A DNA stretch of 37,874 bases from Pseudomonadota bacterium (GTDB taxonomy: Bacteria; UBA10199; 2-02-FULL-44-16; JAAZCA01), in NCBI GenBank assembly GCA_016927275.1, contig JAFGMW010000035.1, forward strand, positions 1 to 37,874, in the 5' to 3' direction. The translations under genes and the position numbers were made by a program. Below the pieces are notes generated by a model. The model did not search any database and had not been told where the DNA came from. It worked only from the letters and a program-made list of their open reading frames with translations. This document shows positions 13,472 through 22,637 of this stretch, piece by piece (within the stretch, counting starts at the first letter, position 1; the number at the start of each line of letters is the position of its first letter).

Positions 13472-13675
13472 ATGCCGTTCTTCCTCATGGCATCTCTGTT
13501 TCTCGTCTTTGCGACCGGCTTCGTCCTGCTAGTGCCGTGGGCCCTCGCCTTCAGGTGGGCGGCGGATTCAGGCGCTGCCGTCGCTGCCTTCGTCCACATC
13601 GCGGCGTTCCTCTTCTTCATGGGGATCGCCCTGGCCTTCGCGCTCGGCGGCAGGGCCCTTGACCGTGAGGGGTGA
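13472..13675 (+). CDS. Short NuoA-like membrane subunit
   Basis: A 67-residue protein with two membrane helices, first gene of the complex I-like operon. It resembles the C-terminal two thirds of NuoA. FVLLVPWALAF lies where NuoA has the FDVEVxFLYPWA helix, and the second helix ends in GGRALDRE, where NuoA has a RKGALxW-type end. The normal first helix and loop are missing (NuoA is usually 115-150 residues), and the conserved acidic pair of the second helix (D-x-E) is absent. It is followed after one base by the nuoB-like gene. Identity rests on position, topology and the PWA and GALD motifs. An alternative is an unrelated small subunit occupying the NuoA site. Confidence 0.6.
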   Translation: MPFFLMASLFLVFATGFVLLVPWALAFRWAADSGAAVAAFVHIAAFLFFMGIALAFALGGRALDREG

Positions 13676-13676
13676 G

Positions 13677-14132
13677 ATGTCCCTGGATTTCTTCGGAGCG
13701 CGGGCAGGGGACCTCGTGGCGTGGGCCAGGCGCAGGGGCCTGGCTGCGGTCGAGCTCGCGTCGTGCTGCTGCGGATGCACGGATGCGCGGCCCTGCCGCG
13801 GCTTCATGTTCCCCACGGTCGAGAGGCCGGAGGAGGCGGACCTGCTCATCGTCTCCGGCCCCGTGGGCGCGAAGAGGGCAAGGCTCTTGAGGGATTTCTA
13901 CGACAGGATGGGCGAGCCCAGATGGGTGATCGCGCTCGGGACGTGCGCGTCGTCAGGCGCGCTTGCCGCTCCCTACGCCGGGAACTGCGGCGCCGATCGC
14001 GCGGTGCCGGTCGACGTGCGCGTCCCCGGCTGCCCGCCCGACGCCGGGGAGCTCGTGCGCGCGGTCGAGAAACTCGCATCCATGATCAGAAGGCCCGCTC
14101 CGGTGGAGGAAGATGATCAGAAATCCGATTGA
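13677..14132 (+). CDS. NuoB-like subunit (cluster N2 protein) with cysteine-rich loop
   Basis: A 151-residue member of the NuoB / small hydrogenase subunit family, the peripheral-arm protein that binds the terminal [4Fe-4S] cluster N2. Ligand positions are retained: a tandem Cys group C30-C32, C90 in GTCASSG and C119 in VPGCPP. EADLLIVSG and PRWVIALGTC are canonical. Unusual: the loop after the tandem cysteines, normally carrying the RFG and SPRQ motifs near the quinone, is replaced by a shorter segment with extra cysteines (C34, C40). The ATG at 13677 is preceded by GAGGGG; an upstream in-frame TTG is less likely. It overlaps nuoC by 20 bp. Confidence 0.88.
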   Translation: MSLDFFGARAGDLVAWARRRGLAAVELASCCCGCTDARPCRGFMFPTVERPEEADLLIVSGPVGAKRARLLRDFYDRMGEPRWVIALGTCASSGALAAPYAGNCGADRAVPVDVRVPGCPPDAGELVRAVEKLASMIRRPAPVEEDDQKSD

Positions 14133-14553
14133 GGCGGTGGGGGATGGGATCCGCGGGGCGAAGGTGAGCGGCGAGGGGGCCGCCGCGCGCGCCGAGGTGC
14201 CCCCCGAGAGATGGGAGGATGCGGCCGCGATCCTCAAGGTGCAGTCGGGCCTCTCCGCCCTCATGGACCTCTTCTGCATCGACCGCGAGGGGGAGGGGCT
14301 GCGCTTCGAGATCGTGGCGAAGCTCAGCGACGGCGGCGGGGGGTCTCGATTCACGCTCACGGCGCGCCTCCCCGAAACCGGTTCGGAGATCGCATCGCTG
14401 GTCAGGGTGCACCCGGCTGCGGAGTGGTACGAGAGGGAGTGTTTCGATATGTTCGGCATATCGTTCAGGGGCGGCCCTGCGCATAAGAGGATACTCACGG
14501 AGGACGATTTTCATGGTCATCCGCTGAGGAAGGATTTTCGAGGGGTATCATGA
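14113..14553 (+). CDS. NuoC-like (30 kDa) subunit
   Basis: A 146-residue homologue of NuoC, a structural subunit of the peripheral arm that packs against NuoD. The family signature is clear near the C-terminus: W-Y-E-R-E-C-F-D-M-F-G-I-x-F, then H-K-R-I-L, then DFHGHPLRKDF. The N-terminal half is shorter and more divergent than usual. Translation is coupled at both ends: it starts inside nuoB, and its TGA overlaps the nuoD ATG (ATGA). Because a NuoC-like protein is characteristic of complex I and its closest relatives, it supports an origin from that branch. Confidence 0.88.
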   Translation: MIRNPIEAVGDGIRGAKVSGEGAAARAEVPPERWEDAAAILKVQSGLSALMDLFCIDREGEGLRFEIVAKLSDGGGGSRFTLTARLPETGSEIASLVRVHPAAEWYERECFDMFGISFRGGPAHKRILTEDDFHGHPLRKDFRGVS

Positions 14554-15722
14554 CCGGCTCCGCCGCAGATGCGCATGAGATCTCGATCCCGGCCGGCGAT
14601 CCCGGTTCCGGCATGCCGTTTCGCCTTGTGATCAAGGCCCGAGGCGCCCGGGTCGAGGCGGCCCGGTCCGAGATCGGCTTTGCGCACCGGGGCCTCGAGA
14701 AGCTCGCCGAGTCCATGACGTGGCATTCGGCCAGGGCGGTCGCGGAGAGGGCGGGCTGCGCGTCGCCCGGCATCGCCGGCACCTGCTGCTGCATGGCGGT
14801 GGAGTCCCTCTTCGGCGTGGAGGTCCCGGCGAGGGCGAAATGGCTGCGCACGATCCTCTGCGAGGCGTGGAGGATACGCGAGGGGCTGTCGCACGCGGGC
14901 CGCACGCTCGCGCACGCCGGTCTCCCCTCGCGCGCCGCCCTCCTCCTCTCGTGCAGGGATTCGGTCGAGGGGTGGGTGCGCGCCTCTTTCGGCGCCTCCG
15001 GCTCCTCATCCAGGATAGGGGGCGTGGCGCGCGACCTGGGCGGCGCGGAGAGCAAGAGGGGCCGTGCGCTCATGCGGAGGGTGAGGGACGAGGCAGGCGG
15101 TGCTGCCTCTGCCCTTGCGGGAGACCGGATCTTTTCGGACAGGACGCGAGGAGTCGGCGTGATTTCGGCCGACGCCGCCTCCGCATGGGGCGTAACGGGG
15201 CCATCCCTTCGGGCCGCGGGGCAGGCAAGGGACCTGAGGAGGGACCTGCCGTATCTCATGTACGCCGGGCTCGATTTCGAGGTCCCGGTAGGGGCGGAGG
15301 GGGACGTGTTCGACCGGACCGTGGTCCGGCTGCTTGAGTCGACGGAGTCCGCGCGCATAGTGGAAGAGGCGATGGCGATGATGGAGCCGGGGCCGCTGAC
15401 TGCAAAGGAGGGGGCGGTCGTCCTCCCCCCTGCGCACGAGGTGTACGGCGGCGGTGAGGGCTTGGCGAGGCACAGGCGCATCATGGCAGGCAAGCAGCGG
15501 CTCCCGGCCGGGGAGGGATGCGCATTGGTGGAGGCGGCTTCGGGCGAGATGGGGTTTCACCTGGTCTCCGACGGCTCCCCCCGGCCTTACAGGTTCAGGG
15601 TGCGGTCGCCGTCGTTCGCGCTCTGTCAGGCGGCCCCGGTGATTCTGAAGGGGTGCGCGGTCGAGGACGTGCCCATGATCGTTGCGAGCCTCGGGGCCTC
15701 GGCCTCTGAGGCGGACAGGTGA
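14550..15722 (+). CDS. NuoD-like (49 kDa) subunit without quinone-site or NiFe-site residues
   Basis: A 390-residue homologue of NuoD / hydrogenase large subunit. The fold signature is visible: IGFAHRGLEKLAE (42-54), AVESLFGVEVPARA, RIGGVARDL, the DVFDR region, and RSPSFALCQ near the end. The N-terminal HPSTHG motif is replaced (GSGM), so the quinone-site His (His38 of Thermus Nqo4) corresponds to Gly21. In an ungapped block ending in AVES, the quinone-site Tyr87 corresponds to Cys70. The hydrogenase CxxC pairs that bind NiFe are also absent, and the usual SLDPVMGEVDR end reads SLGASASEADR. It therefore appears to be neither a quinone reductase nor a hydrogenase subunit. The ATG overlaps the nuoC stop. 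Confidence 0.88.
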   Translation: MTGSAADAHEISIPAGDPGSGMPFRLVIKARGARVEAARSEIGFAHRGLEKLAESMTWHSARAVAERAGCASPGIAGTCCCMAVESLFGVEVPARAKWLRTILCEAWRIREGLSHAGRTLAHAGLPSRAALLLSCRDSVEGWVRASFGASGSSSRIGGVARDLGGAESKRGRALMRRVRDEAGGAASALAGDRIFSDRTRGVGVISADAASAWGVTGPSLRAAGQARDLRRDLPYLMYAGLDFEVPVGAEGDVFDRTVVRLLESTESARIVEEAMAMMEPGPLTAKEGAVVLPPAHEVYGGGEGLARHRRIMAGKQRLPAGEGCALVEAASGEMGFHLVSDGSPRPYRFRVRSPSFALCQAAPVILKGCAVEDVPMIVASLGASASEADR

Positions 15723-15732
15723 GGGGGATCGA

Positions 15733-16791
15733 TTGGACCCGATAGAGATCTGGACGGCGGCCCTCTCCGCGGCGCTGGCGCTCGCGGTGCTGTGCGGGCT
15801 CATGCGCGCCGCCTCGGCGCTCGACCGCTGGGCCGCATCCCCCTCCGGCCGCTGCGGGCCGGCGTACGGCACAGGCCTCGTCCGCGCCGCGGCCCTGGCG
15901 CTCTCGCTCGTGTCCAGGGGGCCGAAGAGGAAGCCGGGCGTCGCCGCGGCGTTCGCATTCGCGCCGGTCGCGGCGCTCGTCGCGGCGCTCGCCGCCGCAG
16001 CGCCTGTGCAGCTTGCGCCCGCGATATCCGCCGGCGCCTGGCGGTTCTCCTTCACGGTCTGGGAACCGGGCGCGGGGCTTCTTTTCTCCCTCGCCATGGT
16101 CTCCCTGTGGGCGTGCGCGTCGTTTCTCTCCATGGCCGGCGAGGGCGACCGCGCCTCGCGCGCGGTGGCGGTCGGATCGGCCGCGGCGTACTTCTCGTTT
16201 TTTCCGGCGATGATGCTCGCCCTGGCCTCAGTCGTCCTCCTCTCGGGGAAGATCGATCCGGCGGGGCTGGTCGCGGACCAGGGCGATGCGATCTGGAGAT
16301 GGAACTGGGCGAGGCAGCCGGTCGCGTTCGCCATATTCGCGGCCAGCTCATGCATGGCCCTGCGCAGGGTCGAGAGCGGCCGCTTCGCGGGGCAGGATGT
16401 GGCGCGCATCCATCCCCAGACGGCCGCTGCCGCGGGATTTGTACGGCGCCTCTCGTTCAGCGCGCTCGCGGCCGCGCTCGCTGCGGTCGGATGCTCCGCG
16501 TTCCTCGGCGGCTGGCAGCTGCCGTTTCTGCCTGTGTCGTCCCTGGCCGAATCCCTCCGGGTGATCGTGCCGGCCTGGGCGGTGGAGCCGTCGGTCGCCG
16601 TCGCGGGCCTTGCGGCGATGGCGGCTAAGAGCGCCCTGCTCCTTGTGCTGTTCGCATTCGCGCGGGCGTCCATCGCCTCCCTCAGGGGGGACCGGCTCGT
16701 GCGCTTCGCGTGGAGGGCCCTCATGCCTTTGGCTATGGCAAATCTTGCTGCGACCGCCTATATTGTGACCGTCCTGTCGAAGGGGGATTAG
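15733..16791 (+). CDS. NuoH-like membrane subunit, divergent
   Basis: A 352-residue protein with eight or so membrane helices, in the NuoH position between D and J. GRCGP (40-43 region) and the WEPGAGLLFSLAMVSL block fit NuoH topology. The signature motifs are badly eroded. The loop that normally reads A-E-T-N-R-x-P-F-D-L-x-E-x-E-S-E-L is replaced by a basic stretch around residues 210-240 (MALRRVESGRFAGQD...), and the Glu in the S-Y-E motif is lost (SFFP). Those acids line the quinone chamber and the E-channel in complex I. Translation starts at TTG 15733 behind a GAGGGGG ribosome binding site. The stop overlaps the next GTG by one base. No nuoI gene follows, unlike the usual order. Confidence 0.8.
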   Translation: MDPIEIWTAALSAALALAVLCGLMRAASALDRWAASPSGRCGPAYGTGLVRAAALALSLVSRGPKRKPGVAAAFAFAPVAALVAALAAAAPVQLAPAISAGAWRFSFTVWEPGAGLLFSLAMVSLWACASFLSMAGEGDRASRAVAVGSAAAYFSFFPAMMLALASVVLLSGKIDPAGLVADQGDAIWRWNWARQPVAFAIFAASSCMALRRVESGRFAGQDVARIHPQTAAAAGFVRRLSFSALAAALAAVGCSAFLGGWQLPFLPVSSLAESLRVIVPAWAVEPSVAVAGLAAMAAKSALLLVLFAFARASIASLRGDRLVRFAWRALMPLAMANLAATAYIVTVLSKGD

Positions 16792-17288
16792 TGGAGGCGA
16801 TCGTCTTCTACATCCTTGCGGCGGCCGCGACCTCATCGGCGGTCATCGCGCTCTCCAGGCGCGACCCGCTCAGCTCCGCGGTCTGGCTCCTGGGCCTCGT
16901 GATACCGGTCGCTGCCATCATGGCGCTGATGCGCGCGCCGCTGGCGGCGTCGGCGTTTCTCATCGTCGCCGTGGGATCGACCCTCTCGTTCTGCCTCTAC
17001 GTCCTCATGCTCATGGAGCCGGGCAGGAGGGCGAGGGCCCGGCAGATAAAATTCGGCAAGGTGCTCGCGGCCGTGGCCGCCGGCTACCTCGCCATCGTCA
17101 TGTCGATAGCGGTCGCGGCGCCCCCGTTTTTTGCGGCGCCGGCGAGCGGCGTGCACTTCGATTCGCCGCTCACCGTGGGCAAGGCCATCGCCTCCGGGTA
17201 CGCGCTCGCCTTCGCGTTATCCGGGCTCATGCTCATGGCCGCGGCCGCGGCCTCGGTGGTAATGGCGGGCAGGGAGGGAGAGGGATGA
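16791..17288 (+). CDS. NuoJ-like membrane subunit
   Basis: A 165-residue protein with five predicted helices. The family N-terminal pattern (SRNPxxSAL) appears as SRRDPLSSAV. The helix that has a conserved Y-V-G-A segment with a pi-bulge in NuoJ reads AVGSTLSF here. The C-terminal Y-x-x-x-F-E-x-A-S helix reads YALAFALSG, so its glutamate is Ala142. It starts with GTG at 16791 overlapping the nuoH TAG, with AGGGGG upstream, and ends in a 4-bp overlap with nuoK. It follows nuoH directly, with no room for a ferredoxin-like NuoI. Confidence 0.82.
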   Translation: MEAIVFYILAAAATSSAVIALSRRDPLSSAVWLLGLVIPVAAIMALMRAPLAASAFLIVAVGSTLSFCLYVLMLMEPGRRARARQIKFGKVLAAVAAGYLAIVMSIAVAAPPFFAAPASGVHFDSPLTVGKAIASGYALAFALSGLMLMAAAAASVVMAGREGEG

Positions 17289-17590
17289 CGCTCACCCTTC
17301 AGCACCTGCTCCTGCTTTCGGCGGCCCTCTTCGCGATCGGCGCCGCGGGAGCGTGCGTGCGCAGGAACGTCCTCGTGGTGTTCATGTCGATCCAGACGAT
17401 GATGGCGGCGGCGATGCTCGCGATGGCCTCCTTCGCGCGGTGGAACCTCCTGCCGGAGGGCAAGGCGGCCATGTTCTTCCTGATAGCGGTGCTCGCCGCG
17501 CAGGCGGCGGCGGGGCTGGCCCTTCTGGTGGCGGTCTTCAAGAGATGCGGGACTGTGCACGGAGACGAGCTGAGGCTTCTGAGGGACTAG
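17285..17590 (+). CDS. NuoK-like membrane subunit with both key glutamates replaced by glutamine
   Basis: A 101-residue, three-helix protein of exactly the normal length and easily aligned with NuoK. LQHLLLLSAALFAIGAAG, the MSIQxM helix, the third helix (LAAQAAAGLAL) and the GTVHGDELRLL end all match. In E. coli NuoK the membrane glutamates E36 and E72 are needed for proton pumping; the matching positions here are Gln37 and Gln73. The rest of the protein is well conserved, so the change is specific rather than general decay. ATG at 17285 overlaps the nuoJ TGA. Confidence 0.92.
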   Translation: MTLTLQHLLLLSAALFAIGAAGACVRRNVLVVFMSIQTMMAAAMLAMASFARWNLLPEGKAAMFFLIAVLAAQAAAGLALLVAVFKRCGTVHGDELRLLRD

Positions 17591-17591
17591 G

Positions 17592-19577
17592 ATGCTCGAA
17601 CTCATATACAGCCACGTTAGCCTGCAGGCGATGATATGGCTCGTGGTCGCGATGCCGCTGGCCGCAGCCGCGGCGAGCGCGCTGGTCGCCGCCCTCTACT
17701 CGGGCAGCGAATCGCCGGGACCGAGGCCCCTGGTCTCGCTCCTGAGCGTCTGCGCGCCTCTCGGGTCCCTGGCCGCCACTGCGGTGATCTTCTTCACCCT
17801 GACCGGCTTCGACGCCGTCTCGCCCTCCGCCATCACCGGGCCTCTGTTCCGGTGGGCCGCGATACCCGGCTTCAGCGTGGACGTTGGGCTTCGCGTGGAC
17901 GAGCTGGCCATGTTCATGGCGGCGCTCGTGGCGGGCGTGGGGTTTCTCGTGCAGCTGTACTCGATCGGCGACATGTGGAACGACGACGGTTTCTTCAGGT
18001 ACCACGCCGTATCCTCGCTCCTCATATTCTTCATGCTGCTGGCGGTGCTCGCCGACAACCTGGTGCTGGCCATCGCAGGGTGGGAGGGGGTCGGGTTCTC
18101 ATCCTGCGCGCTGATCGGTTCCCGCAGGGGAGAGGGGGCCGATCTGCGCTCCGGGCTGCGCGCCTTCGCCATAAACGCGATAGGCGACGCCTCCCTGCTC
18201 GCTGCGGCGTTCGTGATATTCGGCGCCATGTCCGCCTCGGGGGCCGACGCGGATTCGGGCCTCTTCAACTTCGAGACCATGGAGCGCCAGGTCGCCTTCT
18301 TCATGCCCGTGGCCTCCGCCGTCGCCCTGCTCATATTCGGCGCCGCGGCGGCCAAATCGGCCCAGATCCCGCTGCACCTGTGGATGCCGGAGGCGGCGCT
18401 CGCACCGACCCCGGCCTTCGCCCTGATGGGCACGGTCACCACCGCGGCGCTCGGCGTCTACATGGTGATCAGGCTCAACTACATATTCGCGCTGGCGCCT
18501 GCCGCCCTCTCGGTCATGGCGTGGGCGGGCGCGGCATGCGCCCTCCTCTCCGCCACGATGGCGCTGGCCGAGAGGGACCTGCGCAGGATACTCGCCTATT
18601 CCACCGTATCCCAGTTCGGGCTCATCTACATGGCTGCGGGCATGGGCGCGTTCATCGCGGCCTCGTTCCATCTGGCGACGCACGCCCTCTTCAAGTGCCT
18701 GCTCGTGCTCTCGGCCGGCAGCGCCATAAAGGCCTCCTCCGGCGAGAGCGACGTCCTGTCGATGGGCGGGCTCGTGCGGAGGATGCCGATAACCGGATGG
18801 GCCTTCGTGGTCTCCGCCGCGGCGATGGCCGGGATCGCGCCCGCATCGGGCTTCTTCAGCGAGCAGGCGATACTGGGCAGGGCCTTCGAGCGGGGGCACG
18901 TCGCGCTCTGGATCATGGGGCTCGCCGCCCTCGGCGTGACCGCCTTCTACATCTTCAGGGCCGCGGGCGCGGTATTCTTCGGCGACAGCGCGCTGGACGC
19001 GTCGAGGTACAAGAGGGTGGCGGAGCCGTCCATGAGCATGGTGCTGGCCACGATGCTTCTAATCTCGCTTGTCGCGGGGGCCGGCTTCGCAGGGCTGCCG
19101 CATTGTCTGGGAGGCTCCGATTGGATAGGCGGCTGGCTCGGCACGCTCATACCGTCTGAGAGCGGCAGCGCGTTCTCAGACGGATCCTGCGGCACGTGGA
19201 TGGTCCTCGCGGCGGTCTTTCTGCTGTGGTCGGCGCACTTCGCCGTGCTCGGCTGGCTCATCTACGCGCAGAAGCGCGACTGGCCCGCCCGGGTGGCAAG
19301 GCGCATAAGGCCGCTCGCGCAGCTGGCGGCCAGGAAATATTACTTCGAGGAGATCTGCGGCCTTGTAATAGTCGGGCCTGTCGAGTGGTTCGCCCGCGTG
19401 ATAGTGAAGCGGGGGGTGGACAGGACCGCGATCGACGGGATAGCGGCGGGCGGCGTGGCGAGGACGGTGGGGCTCGGCGCCTCGATCGCGCGCGCCGCGC
19501 AGAGCGGCATGCTCTATCACTACATGCTCTATTTTCTCATCGGCGCCGTAGCGATAATCGCGCTGGTGGCGCTGTGA
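17592..19577 (+). CDS. NuoL-like antiporter subunit
   Basis: A 661-residue, multi-helix antiporter-like subunit. Pumping residues are present: Glu165 in GWEGVG (helix 5), Lys255 in AAAKSAQIPLHLW (helix 7), and the Lys in HALFKCLL. The helix that usually has ALIHAAT reads ALMGTVT, so its His is Gly280. The C-terminal KYYFEE motif and following helices suggest the long lateral helix that clamps NuoM and NuoN is retained. The ATG at 17592 lies one base after the nuoK stop. By conservation this is a potentially functional cation-translocating subunit. Confidence 0.93.
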   Translation: MLELIYSHVSLQAMIWLVVAMPLAAAAASALVAALYSGSESPGPRPLVSLLSVCAPLGSLAATAVIFFTLTGFDAVSPSAITGPLFRWAAIPGFSVDVGLRVDELAMFMAALVAGVGFLVQLYSIGDMWNDDGFFRYHAVSSLLIFFMLLAVLADNLVLAIAGWEGVGFSSCALIGSRRGEGADLRSGLRAFAINAIGDASLLAAAFVIFGAMSASGADADSGLFNFETMERQVAFFMPVASAVALLIFGAAAAKSAQIPLHLWMPEAALAPTPAFALMGTVTTAALGVYMVIRLNYIFALAPAALSVMAWAGAACALLSATMALAERDLRRILAYSTVSQFGLIYMAAGMGAFIAASFHLATHALFKCLLVLSAGSAIKASSGESDVLSMGGLVRRMPITGWAFVVSAAAMAGIAPASGFFSEQAILGRAFERGHVALWIMGLAALGVTAFYIFRAAGAVFFGDSALDASRYKRVAEPSMSMVLATMLLISLVAGAGFAGLPHCLGGSDWIGGWLGTLIPSESGSAFSDGSCGTWMVLAAVFLLWSAHFAVLGWLIYAQKRDWPARVARRIRPLAQLAARKYYFEEICGLVIVGPVEWFARVIVKRGVDRTAIDGIAAGGVARTVGLGASIARAAQSGMLYHYMLYFLIGAVAIIALVAL

Positions 19578-19590
19578 TCCGGAGGGGCGA

Positions 19591-21153
19591 TTGGCTGAGA
19601 TGATCTCGAGGGCGGCGGAGTTTATGTCGGCGCATATGGTGAGCGCGGCCGTGGCGCTGCCGCTGGCGGGCGCGATCGTCTCGCTCGCGATCCCGGCCGG
19701 GGCGAGGGCCGCGGCCAGGGTCGCCTCGGCGATATTCTCCGCGGTCGGCGCCGGGCTGTGCGTCGCCGCCTTCGCCAGGATCCGCGGCAGCGGGGAGATA
19801 GAGTTCGCGGAGATGGCGCAGTGGATACCGTCGCTCGGGATCTACTACAGGGTCGGGTTCGACGGGGTCTCGGGGCTGCTCGCGGCTGCAGCGTCGGCTT
19901 CGTGCTTCGGCTCCATCATATTTTCCCTGAGGCGGGAGGTCCCGAGGGAGCGCCTGTCGCTCGCCCTCATGCTCTTCGCCCAGGGGTGCCTCACCGGGAT
20001 ATTCGCCTCGCTCGACGGGTTCCTCTTCTACCTCTTCTGGAGCGGCTCGGCCGCTGCCCTGTGCCTTTTGACGGGGGTGTGGGGTGAGGGCGGGAGGATC
20101 GCCGCCGCTACGAAATTCATGGCGTTCGCAGCGGCGGGCAGCGCGGCTATGCTCCTCGCGTTCGCCTTCGCAGGGGCGAGCGCAGAGTCGTTCTACATCG
20201 TGGACTGGATGGCCCACCGGTTCGGCCTCTTCGACCAGATGTGGATGTTCTGGGCGCTCGCGCTGGCCTTCGGGGTCATGATGCCGATAGCCGGGCTCCA
20301 CACCTGGCTCGCGGATCTCTGCGAGCAGTCGTCTCCTGCGGGGGCGGCGCTCGCCGGGGGGGCGATGCTGGCTGCCGGCGCCTACGGATTCTTCAGGATC
20401 GGCATGCCGATAGCGCCGGTGGCGGTCGCGGTCTTCGCGCCCGCCATGTGCTGGCTCGGCGTGGCCGCGGTGTTCATGGGAGCCATGCTGGCCCTTGCCG
20501 AGAGGGATCTAGCGCGGATCGCGGCGGCGGTCTCGCTCTCGCAGATGGGGATCGTGCTGCTGGGTCTCTTCTCGCTCCAGTCCGTGGGGGTTTCCGGCGC
20601 GGTGCTGCTCATGGCGGCCAACGCACTGATAGCGTGCGGGGTCCACATGGTCTCGGGCACGCTCAGGGCGAGGGCGGGCGGCTCCGACCTGGCGAACGCA
20701 GGGGGGATATGGCGCGCGATGCCGGCCGTGGCCGCTGCGCTCGCCCTCTTTGCTGCCGCGGCGGTCGGCCTGCCAGGCCTCGCCGGATTCTCCGGCCAGT
20801 TCACGCTGCTGCTGGGCAGCTTTCAGGTGCGCACGCTGCACGCGTCGCTGGCCCTTGCGGGGCTCGCCATTCTGGCATCCGCGATCGCGGTCAGGGTGGT
20901 CATCGCCCTCTTCGGCAGGCGCGCGGCCGGGGATGAGCGGCGCCGGTCCGACGCTGGGCCGGCGGAGATCACGGCGATGGCCGCTATCGGGGCGGTGATC
21001 GTGCTGGCGGGCCTCTGGCCGCAGCCGCTGCTCGGCAGGATAGAGAGGCCTGCGGAGGCCTTTGTGAAGCTCTCGAAGAGGGTGGAGATGATAATCCCGG
21101 CGGGCCGTTCGCCGGTCCCGGATGAGGCGGCGCCCGAGGGGAGGGGCGAGTGA
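19591..21153 (+). CDS. NuoM-like antiporter subunit with pumping residues replaced
   Basis: A 520-residue protein aligning with NuoM along most of its length (LHTWLAD, AGAYGFFRI, AERDLARIAAAVSLSQMG, GLPGLAGFSGQFTLLLGSF). At the four positions essential or important in E. coli NuoM the residues differ: Ser151 for Glu144 (FWE to FWS), Met230 for Lys234 (FAVKMP to FGVMMP), Ala261 for Lys265, and Gln403 for Glu407. The helix with a conserved SHG reads ANA. The scaffold is well kept, so it probably still assembles. The TTG start at 19591 sits behind GGAGGGGCGA; an ATG at 19600 is the alternative. It overlaps nuoN by 4 bp. Confidence 0.9.
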   Translation: MAEMISRAAEFMSAHMVSAAVALPLAGAIVSLAIPAGARAAARVASAIFSAVGAGLCVAAFARIRGSGEIEFAEMAQWIPSLGIYYRVGFDGVSGLLAAAASASCFGSIIFSLRREVPRERLSLALMLFAQGCLTGIFASLDGFLFYLFWSGSAAALCLLTGVWGEGGRIAAATKFMAFAAAGSAAMLLAFAFAGASAESFYIVDWMAHRFGLFDQMWMFWALALAFGVMMPIAGLHTWLADLCEQSSPAGAALAGGAMLAAGAYGFFRIGMPIAPVAVAVFAPAMCWLGVAAVFMGAMLALAERDLARIAAAVSLSQMGIVLLGLFSLQSVGVSGAVLLMAANALIACGVHMVSGTLRARAGGSDLANAGGIWRAMPAVAAALALFAAAAVGLPGLAGFSGQFTLLLGSFQVRTLHASLALAGLAILASAIAVRVVIALFGRRAAGDERRRSDAGPAEITAMAAIGAVIVLAGLWPQPLLGRIERPAEAFVKLSKRVEMIIPAGRSPVPDEAAPEGRGE

Positions 21154-22637
21154 CGGCTGCGATCCTCGACATCGCACACGCGTGGTTCCCCGGCGCGGCG
21201 CTTCCGCTGGCGGTGCTCGCGATCGCCGCGGCCGCGGCACTGATCTCCTCCGCGGCGACCAGGGGCGCGGGCCGATGGGTCGACGCCGGGATCTCCGTCG
21301 CCGGGCTTCTGGCGGCCGCTGCGCTCGCATGGCGGACCTGGCCGGAGGCCGGGACCGCCGGGGCGGCGATCCTGATCACCGACCGGCTCGGGCTGGCCGG
21401 CATGATCGTGGTGCTTGCTTCGGCGGCCTGCTCGGCGCTCATATCGAGCCCTTATCTCGGGCACCGCGAGCGGACGGGGATCGGATTTTACGGCCTGCTG
21501 ATGCTCTCAGCCTTCGGCATGGCGGCGCTGTGCTTCGCAGGCGACCTCATCGCCATCCTCATCGCCATGGAGACCGCGTCGATCTCCCTCTCGGCGATGG
21601 CCGGCTACGCGCGCACCCGGCCGCAGTCGGTCGAGGCCTCGCTCAAGATGTTCATGATGTCCGCGTTCTCGACCGCGTTCTACTGCATGGGGCTGGCTTT
21701 CATATTCGGCAGCCTGGGCAGCACGTCGCTCGCGACCATCGCGGAGAGGTTCGAGTACGTCCTCTCCGGCGAGGGGAGGGGGATGTTCCTCTTCGGGCTC
21801 GCGATGGTGTTCTCGGGCCTTTCGCTCAAGGTCTCCGCTGCGCCGTTCCACTCCTGGGCGCCGGACGTGCTCGAGGGGTCGCCCATGCCCGTGTCGCTCT
21901 TCATCGCCACATCGGCCAAGGCAGCGGGCCTCGTCGCGCTCCTTCGCATCGCCATGGCTATTGCGGCCCCCGGCGGCGCGCTCTGGCACGGGCTCGCCTC
22001 CGCGGTCGCGGCAGTCACGATCCTGTGGGGGGCGCTGGCCGCGATGCGACAGGAGAATCTCAAGCGGATGCTGGCCTATCTCTCGGTCGCAGCCGGCGGG
22101 TTCATGCTGGCTGCGCTCCCTTCGCTGGCCCTTTCCCACGCGCCAATGGCGCGCGCCCTCCTCATGAACCTCGTGGCCTACTGCGTCTCGATGGTGGGCG
22201 CGTTCGCGGCGCTGGCCGCCCTGGCGCCGGGCGATGGGCTGGACTCGAGACGCCTGTGCGGGCTCTCCAGGCGCAGGCCCTGGGCCGCGGCCGCGATGTC
22301 GCTGTTTCTTCTCTCGCTCGCCGGCGCGCCTCCCACTCTGGGGTTTGCCGGGAGGTTCTATCTCGTGATGGAGGTTGCGCGCGCGGGCGACATAATGCTC
22401 GCGGCGGTGGTGTCGCTCGGCACGGCGATCATGTTCATCTGCGTCTTGAGGCCCATAGTCTCGATGTACATGAGGGAGGCCGGGGCGGCGCCCGCCCTTG
22501 AGGGGCAAGAGGCGGCAGGCGGGGGGTCGAACGTGCTCACCGGCGTCATGGCCGCAGCGGCGCTGGCGGTATCGGCCTTCGGCCTCTTTCCGCAGGACCT
22601 GATGGCCTTCGTCTACGCCTCCTCGGCCCTTTTGTGA
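21150..22637 (+). CDS. NuoN-like antiporter subunit
   Basis: A 495-residue protein, last subunit gene of the operon. Pumping residues are retained: Glu141 in IAMETASISLSAMAGY, Lys227 in SLKVSAAPFHSWAPD, Lys257 in SAKAAGLVALLR, with LEGSPMPVS in between. Near the C-terminus GFAGRF has Arg where family members have Lys. A low-complexity cytoplasmic loop (GQEAAGGGSN) precedes the last helix. It starts with GTG at 21150 overlapping the nuoM stop. Together with NuoL it is one of only two antiporter-like subunits here with intact ionisable residues. Confidence 0.92.
   Translation: MTAAILDIAHAWFPGAALPLAVLAIAAAAALISSAATRGAGRWVDAGISVAGLLAAAALAWRTWPEAGTAGAAILITDRLGLAGMIVVLASAACSALISSPYLGHRERTGIGFYGLLMLSAFGMAALCFAGDLIAILIAMETASISLSAMAGYARTRPQSVEASLKMFMMSAFSTAFYCMGLAFIFGSLGSTSLATIAERFEYVLSGEGRGMFLFGLAMVFSGLSLKVSAAPFHSWAPDVLEGSPMPVSLFIATSAKAAGLVALLRIAMAIAAPGGALWHGLASAVAAVTILWGALAAMRQENLKRMLAYLSVAAGGFMLAALPSLALSHAPMARALLMNLVAYCVSMVGAFAALAALAPGDGLDSRRLCGLSRRRPWAAAAMSLFLLSLAGAPPTLGFAGRFYLVMEVARAGDIMLAAVVSLGTAIMFICVLRPIVSMYMREAGAAPALEGQEAAGGGSNVLTGVMAAAALAVSAFGLFPQDLMAFVYASSALL

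Follow-up and report, generated by a model that had tools for sequence, protein, structure and literature searches.

A complex I operon without NADH module and catalytic quinone-site residues, possibly caught part-way through stepwise dismantling

Complex I enzymes of eleven subunits, which lack the NADH module (N-module) and keep the Q-module, are known (PMC11238625), and one study reports the genes nuoJKLMN alone from all of its 95 Gilliamella genomes and calls them a possible remnant (PMC11325843). The locus described here comes from a Pseudomonadota bacterium (GTDB lineage Bacteria; UBA10199; 2-02-FULL-44-16; JAAZCA01) and lies in a stretch of 37,874 nucleotides, referred to as the window (assembly GCA_016927275.1, contig JAFGMW010000035.1), which is contig C35 of a draft genome of 1.81 Mb in 119 contigs that is about 96% complete; the GC content of the window is 0.65. 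It holds an operon of ten complex I (nuo) genes, to which a nuoI gene elsewhere in the genome belongs. As far as the genes can tell, comparison with relatives shows that NuoE, NuoF and NuoG are gone from this lineage, together with half of NuoA. Also lost are the residues with which NuoD reduces quinone, the E-channel in NuoH and NuoK, and the proton path in NuoM. The explanation that we prefer, and which we rate as about even, is that this complex I has been caught part-way in a stepwise, probably parallel dismantling that leaves behind a membrane arm whose ion function is Mrp-like and redox-independent.

Within its class, the operon is orthologous to that of the 14-subunit complex I (for example in the genomes G002, G005 and G006), with the order A-B-C-D-(EFG)-H-J-K-L-M-N and a detached nuoI, but it differs in the absence of nuoE, nuoF, nuoG and a lipoprotein-like gene between nuoB and nuoC, in its halved nuoA, and in the quinone site (Q-site) and E-channel. 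The 11-subunit complexes of Desulfitobacterium and the NDH-1 of cyanobacteria and plastids have the same eleven subunits and likewise no NADH module. However, they are thought to keep the function of the Q-module, and in Desulfitobacterium nuoI is part of the operon, whereas the window has arrived at this subset by secondary loss and its Q-site residues are gone. The Orbaceae with nuoJKLMN only (Gilliamella, PMC11325843) resemble the relative G003 of the window genome, which has the same five genes after loss of the redox half, but they are bee-gut Gammaproteobacteria whose genes are regarded as remnants, and the window represents an earlier stage.

The Mrp (CPA3) antiporters share homologous subunits with the membrane arm, NuoL, NuoN, NuoK and NuoJ corresponding to MrpA-N, MrpD, MrpC and MrpA-C, and they have no NuoH, a His in place of both NuoK glutamates and another residue at the position of NuoJ Y59 (PMC7419157); the version of the complex in G003 is redox-free as well. 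Deletions of mrpA and mrpD in B. subtilis can be rescued by NuoL and under some circumstances by NuoN, which was not shown for NuoM (PMC4938563). The Glu in transmembrane helix (TM) 5 and the Lys in TM7 that mark the Mrp-type subunits are present in the window (NuoL E144 and K229, NuoN E133 and K217), while the NuoL of G003 has a Ser at E144. In contrast to Mrp, the window genome has a third subunit of the NuoM type together with B, C, D, H and I, and neither its operon nor the G003 locus, which hold only nuo-type subunits, contains MrpB, E, F or G. The His pair of the MrpC ion site is also missing, with no His in the corresponding stretch of NuoK (the window reads MSIQTMMAAA, G003 VSIATMFCAS). 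The complex is not a member of the Mrp family, since it lacks MrpB, E, F and G as well as the Mrp ion-site residues. The group 4 [NiFe] hydrogenases (MBH, formate hydrogenlyase) and their relatives have a common ancestry of NuoB, D, H, I and the antiporter subunits, but the NuoD of the window scores as NuoD (302 bits) and has neither of the two CxxC motifs that carry the nickel ligands, reading ERAGCASPG and ending in SLGASASEADR. In the passages of the literature that were searched, no intermediate with a de-catalysed Q-module and no parallel residue losses were reported; precedent is known for the 11-subunit enzymes and for bare nuoJKLMN, and the intermediate itself is apparently unreported.

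Gene content of the operon and the detached nuoI

The ten genes occupy positions 13472-22637 of the forward strand and were named by Pfam and NCBIfam profiles as nuoA, B, C, D, H, J, K, L, M and N. Their spacing of -20 to +13 bp agrees with the tight, overlapping order reported in a preliminary description of this DNA, as does the TAGTG junction, at which NuoH ends at position 16791 and the GTG start of NuoJ begins on the same base; nuoA, however, is only half a gene, its match spanning positions 41-98 of the 99 profile positions. The gap between nuoD and nuoH is 10 bp, so that nuoE, nuoF and nuoG are absent from the operon, as had been stated, and the NuoE, F and G of a 14-subunit NADH:quinone oxidoreductase are not present, each of the genome's three full NuoF-type proteins being assigned to another enzyme. 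One is a fused NuoE-NuoF-ferredoxin protein adjoining a NuoG/GltD-like protein, another lies among genes that by eye resemble oxoacid-ferredoxin oxidoreductase and HydB, and the third neighbours an [FeFe] hydrogenase, with Rnf genes on the same contig. Their identity to the Nuo-type NuoF of the class is about 40%, and that to each other 42-48%; a fourth, short match corresponds to the end of an RnfC-like protein. With a single NuoB homologue in the genome, this operon is not the decaying duplicate of a second complete one.

The preliminary description had further noted that nuoI occurs neither in the operon nor elsewhere in the window, which is correct, and had taken this as the loss of exactly the wire that feeds electrons to cluster N2. 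This does not hold, as an orthologous NuoI of 155 amino acids (aa) that belongs to the operon is encoded at C97:29593-30060. It scores 55 bits against the profile, for which the curated cut-off is 113, and among PDB entries it matches E. coli NuoI best (3e-15); both 4Fe-4S motifs with all eight cluster cysteines are kept. Together with the four NuoB cysteines, the ligands of the whole iron-sulfur (Fe-S) chain N6a, N6b and N2 are present, so the wire has survived. The gene lies between dcd/DUF2203 and dnaJ/thiolase, names that were assigned by reading the sequences, and the same dcd-nuoI-dnaJ arrangement was found in all seven relatives examined (dcd and dnaJ in 7/7, thiolase in 5), a conserved block which rules out a missing wire. 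Since nuoH is followed by nuoJ without nuoI in the operons of relatives that were read, and NuoI-type matches occur in 43 of the 45 genomes searched, mostly on contigs other than that of the operon, the operon without nuoI is a trait of the clade, the gene being detached in nearly the whole class. The resulting set of A, B, C, D, H, I, J, K, L, M and N, ten genes in the operon with nuoA halved plus the detached nuoI, is that of an 11-subunit, ferredoxin-type complex derived from 14 subunits.

Residues lost and kept

The residues of the window were compared with those of 20-31 genomes of the class in which the sites are invariant. For residues that go unnamed in the passages cited, the E. coli and Thermus numbers are those that we take to apply, and they were placed via alignments. 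The roles of the residues follow PMC5938582, PMC7419157 and PMC13073174.

In NuoD, the quinone-site residues H38 and Y87 (Nqo4 numbering), which are invariant in 30-31 relatives, are replaced by Gly and Cys, and with the losses in NuoH and NuoK the Q-module and E-channel are no longer conserved as in an 11-subunit complex I. The losses in NuoM are concentrated on function, with 6/6 functional residues lost as opposed to 4/15 other invariant charged residues (P=0.004). NuoL, in turn, retains 30 of its 33 invariant Gly and Pro residues. Table 1 lists the changes for each subunit. New cysteines were observed close to the N2 ligands and to where the quinone pocket used to be, namely C70 (at the position of Tyr87) and C79-C81 in NuoD and C30, C34, C40 and C104 in NuoB, which possibly form an extra metal or cluster site or are mere drift.

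Table 1. Genes of the operon in the window with their positions and the state of the residues checked (NuoD quinone site in Thermus numbering).
Gene	Position	Strand	Residues and remarks
nuoA (C-terminal half only, 67 aa)	13472..13675	+	without TM1 and the TM1-2 Q-site loop; D79A, E81G
nuoB	13677..14132	+	N2 cysteines C31, C32, C90, C119 kept; 38/70 class-invariant residues changed
nuoC (146 aa)	14113..14553	+	
nuoD	14550..15722	+	H38>G21, Y87>C70, D139>H122 (quinone site); C-terminal half well kept
nuoH	15733..16791	+	PFDLPE loop and all nine checked acidic residues of Q-tunnel and E-channel lost
nuoJ (GTG start overlapping the nuoH stop)	16791..17288	+	Y59>A
nuoK	17285..17590	+	both membrane glutamates Gln: E36>Q37, E72>Q73
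nuoL	17592..19577	+	E144, D178, K229, H334, H338, K342 and lateral helix kept; H254>G, K399>E, D400>Q
nuoM	19591..21153	+	E144>S, K234>M, K265>A, H322>Q, H348>N, E407>Q; every ionisable channel residue checked (six) neutralised
nuoN	21150..22637	+	E133, K217, K247 kept; H305>A, K395>R; lowest acceleration of all subunits

Rates of change and the series of relatives

The subunits differ strongly in their rates. Compared with the median relative, the terminal branch of the window is 14.7 times as long for NuoB, 10.2 times for D, 7.1 for H, 6.3 for I, 6.1 for A and for M, 4.2 for C, 3.1 for K, 3.0 for L, 2.4 for J and 1.8 for N. The genes beside nuoI served as controls and are not accelerated (dcd 0.9 times, dnaJ 0.6 times), which rules out fast evolution of the whole genome, and since the detached nuoI is accelerated along with the operon, it is tied to the complex. 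The branch carries about 2,700 excess replacements, which without selection would have been accompanied by about 50 (with a strongly GC-biased spectrum) to about 110 stop codons. As none was observed, neutral decay across the whole branch is rejected; the test is based on a single genome and speaks for the branch as a whole, and selection may have been relaxed recently. The pattern of GC across codon positions is normal, with the GC content of third positions (GC3) much above that of second positions (GC2). The subunit-specific acceleration, the losses at invariant sites of the quinone site, E-channel and NuoM, and a relative reduced to nuoJKLMN support the earlier suggestion of a remodelled machine, although not the missing wire on which it had in part been based. 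No second close match to the remodelled NuoM was found among 46 genomes of the class, the best reaching 41%.

Three other genomes, G001, G002 and G003, represent the family. The contig of G002 starts inside nuoB, and the operon is otherwise complete. In G001 (L054 9022-18793), the NuoE match ends half-way and continues in frame into NuoF, nuoF is separated from nuoG by some 8 kb in which restriction-modification and Fic-like genes lie, and the NuoK and NuoM sites are intact; the join between nuoE and nuoF is rich in RSHDR-like repeats, which are also present within the nuoCD fusion. Despite their near-complete complexes, Y59 of NuoJ, invariant elsewhere in the class, is already Ser in G002 and Ala in G001. 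G003, which is about 99% complete, has only nuoJ-K-L-M-N and a lipoprotein-like gene at the syntenic place, with the same hypothetical gene and metG adjoining. This lipoprotein-like gene of TPR-like appearance (L129 16383-17375 in G003) is part of the nuo operons of the order, lying between nuoB and nuoC in G001, G002, G005 and G006, and is not found in the operon of the window. At the dcd-dnaJ junction of G003 nuoI is gone, and the only NuoD-like gene lies in a hydrogenase-type cluster; a separate membrane cluster resembling hydrogenase-4 and formate hydrogenlyase, with a fused NuoI-NuoB-like protein, was observed at G003 C29, L065 8888-16170.

In G003, the glutamates E36 and E72 of NuoK (A, M), E144, K234 and H322 of NuoM (A, A, Y), E144 of NuoL (S) and H305 of NuoN (Q) are lost, and E133, K217 and K247 of NuoN, K229, H254, H334, H338, K342 and D178 of NuoL and K265, H348 and E407 of NuoM are kept. 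The reductions in the window and G003 are probably independent, because in the NuoL tree G003 joins G002 (99), whereas the window stands separately beside G001; the trees of NuoK and NuoM, which place the window with G003, are weak. The invariant sites lost in both overlap more than expected by chance (NuoL 27 versus 18.0, P=0.0017; NuoM 27 versus 20.7, P=0.013; NuoN 7 versus 3.3, P=0.011), part of which needs no common function because sites differ in mutability. In another family of the class, a nuoM copy with an internal TGA and TAA (G021:C64 23359-24834) is a possible true pseudogene.

Function of the remaining complex

The losses started from the 14-subunit enzyme of the class, with nuoI already detached. 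In the window genome, the remaining ten subunits and half of NuoA are still open genes, with the Fe-S ligands of NuoI and NuoB and the channel residues of NuoN and most of those of NuoL kept, and G003 with J-K-L-M-N only is further along. Electron transfer to quinone would no longer be coupled to proton pumping, because quinone reduction has been assigned to Tyr87 and His38 and the signal to Asp139 and NuoH (PMC5938582). The parts that are kept match those common to Mrp antiporters, so that the likeliest job would be a redox-independent movement of ions or protons through NuoL and NuoN, for which the membrane arm may have been retained in the manner of an Mrp-type antiporter or an ion channel, whereas the peripheral arm (B, C, D, I) of the window genome may be a cluster-bearing structural or regulatory remnant. 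In E. coli NuoN, replacement of E133 has no significant effect and loss of K217 leaves pumping intact, while K247 and K395 are essential (PMC13073174), and it should be noted with caution that K395 is Arg in the window.

Several observations weigh against this explanation. The retention of all 12 Fe-S cysteines is more in keeping with an electron path that works than with a remnant; the additional Mrp subunits B, E, F and G and the Mrp ion-site residues are not present; K399 and D400 of NuoL and H305 of NuoN are lost too, in addition to the change at NuoN K395 and the missing E144 in the NuoL of G003; and the remodelled state of the window is known from one genome, so that its conservation is not measurable. 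The conserved cysteines keep alive the idea, unlikely in our estimation, of an enzyme that is still redox-active and fed by ferredoxin, in which electrons pass from N6a and N6b of NuoI over N2 and leave to a new acceptor, the pocket in NuoB and NuoD having been rebuilt, possibly uncoupled from pumping. In its favour, the cluster cysteines of NuoB are kept although about half of the other NuoB invariants are lost, new cysteines lie by the old quinone pocket, and the presence of Rnf, [FeFe] hydrogenase and ETF-QO in the genome implies traffic of ferredoxin and probably of quinone; against it, a conserved replacement pocket is not recognisable from a single sequence, acceleration is among the strongest in B, D, H and A, and G003 manages without the whole redox half. 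As to quinone itself, MenD and MqnA were not detected in the window genome, nor in the family f1 (G000-G003) except for one weak MenD match below the cut-off in G001. Simple quinone loss is not established as the cause of the changes, since G001 and G002 have canonical Q-site residues despite the same non-detection, and the window genome retains ETF-QO and a MenA-like UbiA.

Plain decay, in which selection was relaxed and the operon, by itself without function, is a late remnant, an idea put forward for the nuoJKLMN of Orbaceae (PMC11325843), seems to us similarly improbable. It would be in line with the loss or damage of modules in 3/4 genera (a truncated nuoE in G001, half of nuoA in the window, nuoI and A-H gone in G003) and with many replacements toward residues with GC-rich codons, but it is difficult to reconcile with the large number of replacements without a stop codon, the normal codon-position GC and the very uneven rates, lowest in NuoN and NuoJ; the Gly and Pro residues kept in NuoL speak against it less clearly, as a GC-rich mutation bias favours both. 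An ordinary ferredoxin:quinone proton pump with compensating substitutions has the 11-subunit gene set, NuoI and N2 in its favour, but the joint loss of the His, Tyr and Asp of the quinone site, of both glutamates in NuoK and of six channel residues in NuoM makes it hardly credible.

Returning to the stepwise dismantling, a bolder version, which we put forward tentatively, would have one family turn complex I into a redox-independent ion transporter at least twice by the same path, losing the NADH module, then the Q-site, E-channel and NuoM relays, and then the whole redox half. NuoL and NuoN would be working ion conduits of a re-evolved Mrp-like machine, and in the window as the intermediate, the cluster-bearing peripheral arm may gate ion flow by its redox state. 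The family offers a natural deletion series, from the near-complete G002 over the damaged NADH module of G001 and the de-catalysed 11-subunit complex of the window genome to the bare J-K-L-M-N arm of G003, which addresses the open questions of how the quinone site drives the distant antiporter-like subunits and what the membrane arm does without it. Two lineages lost the NuoK glutamates and the TM5 Glu and TM7 Lys of NuoM and kept the Glu and Lys of NuoN and the TM7 Lys of NuoL, and this shared pattern predicts which residues would serve redox coupling and which ion movement alone. It is also a warning against taking the nuo gene content of metagenome-assembled genomes as evidence of respiration.

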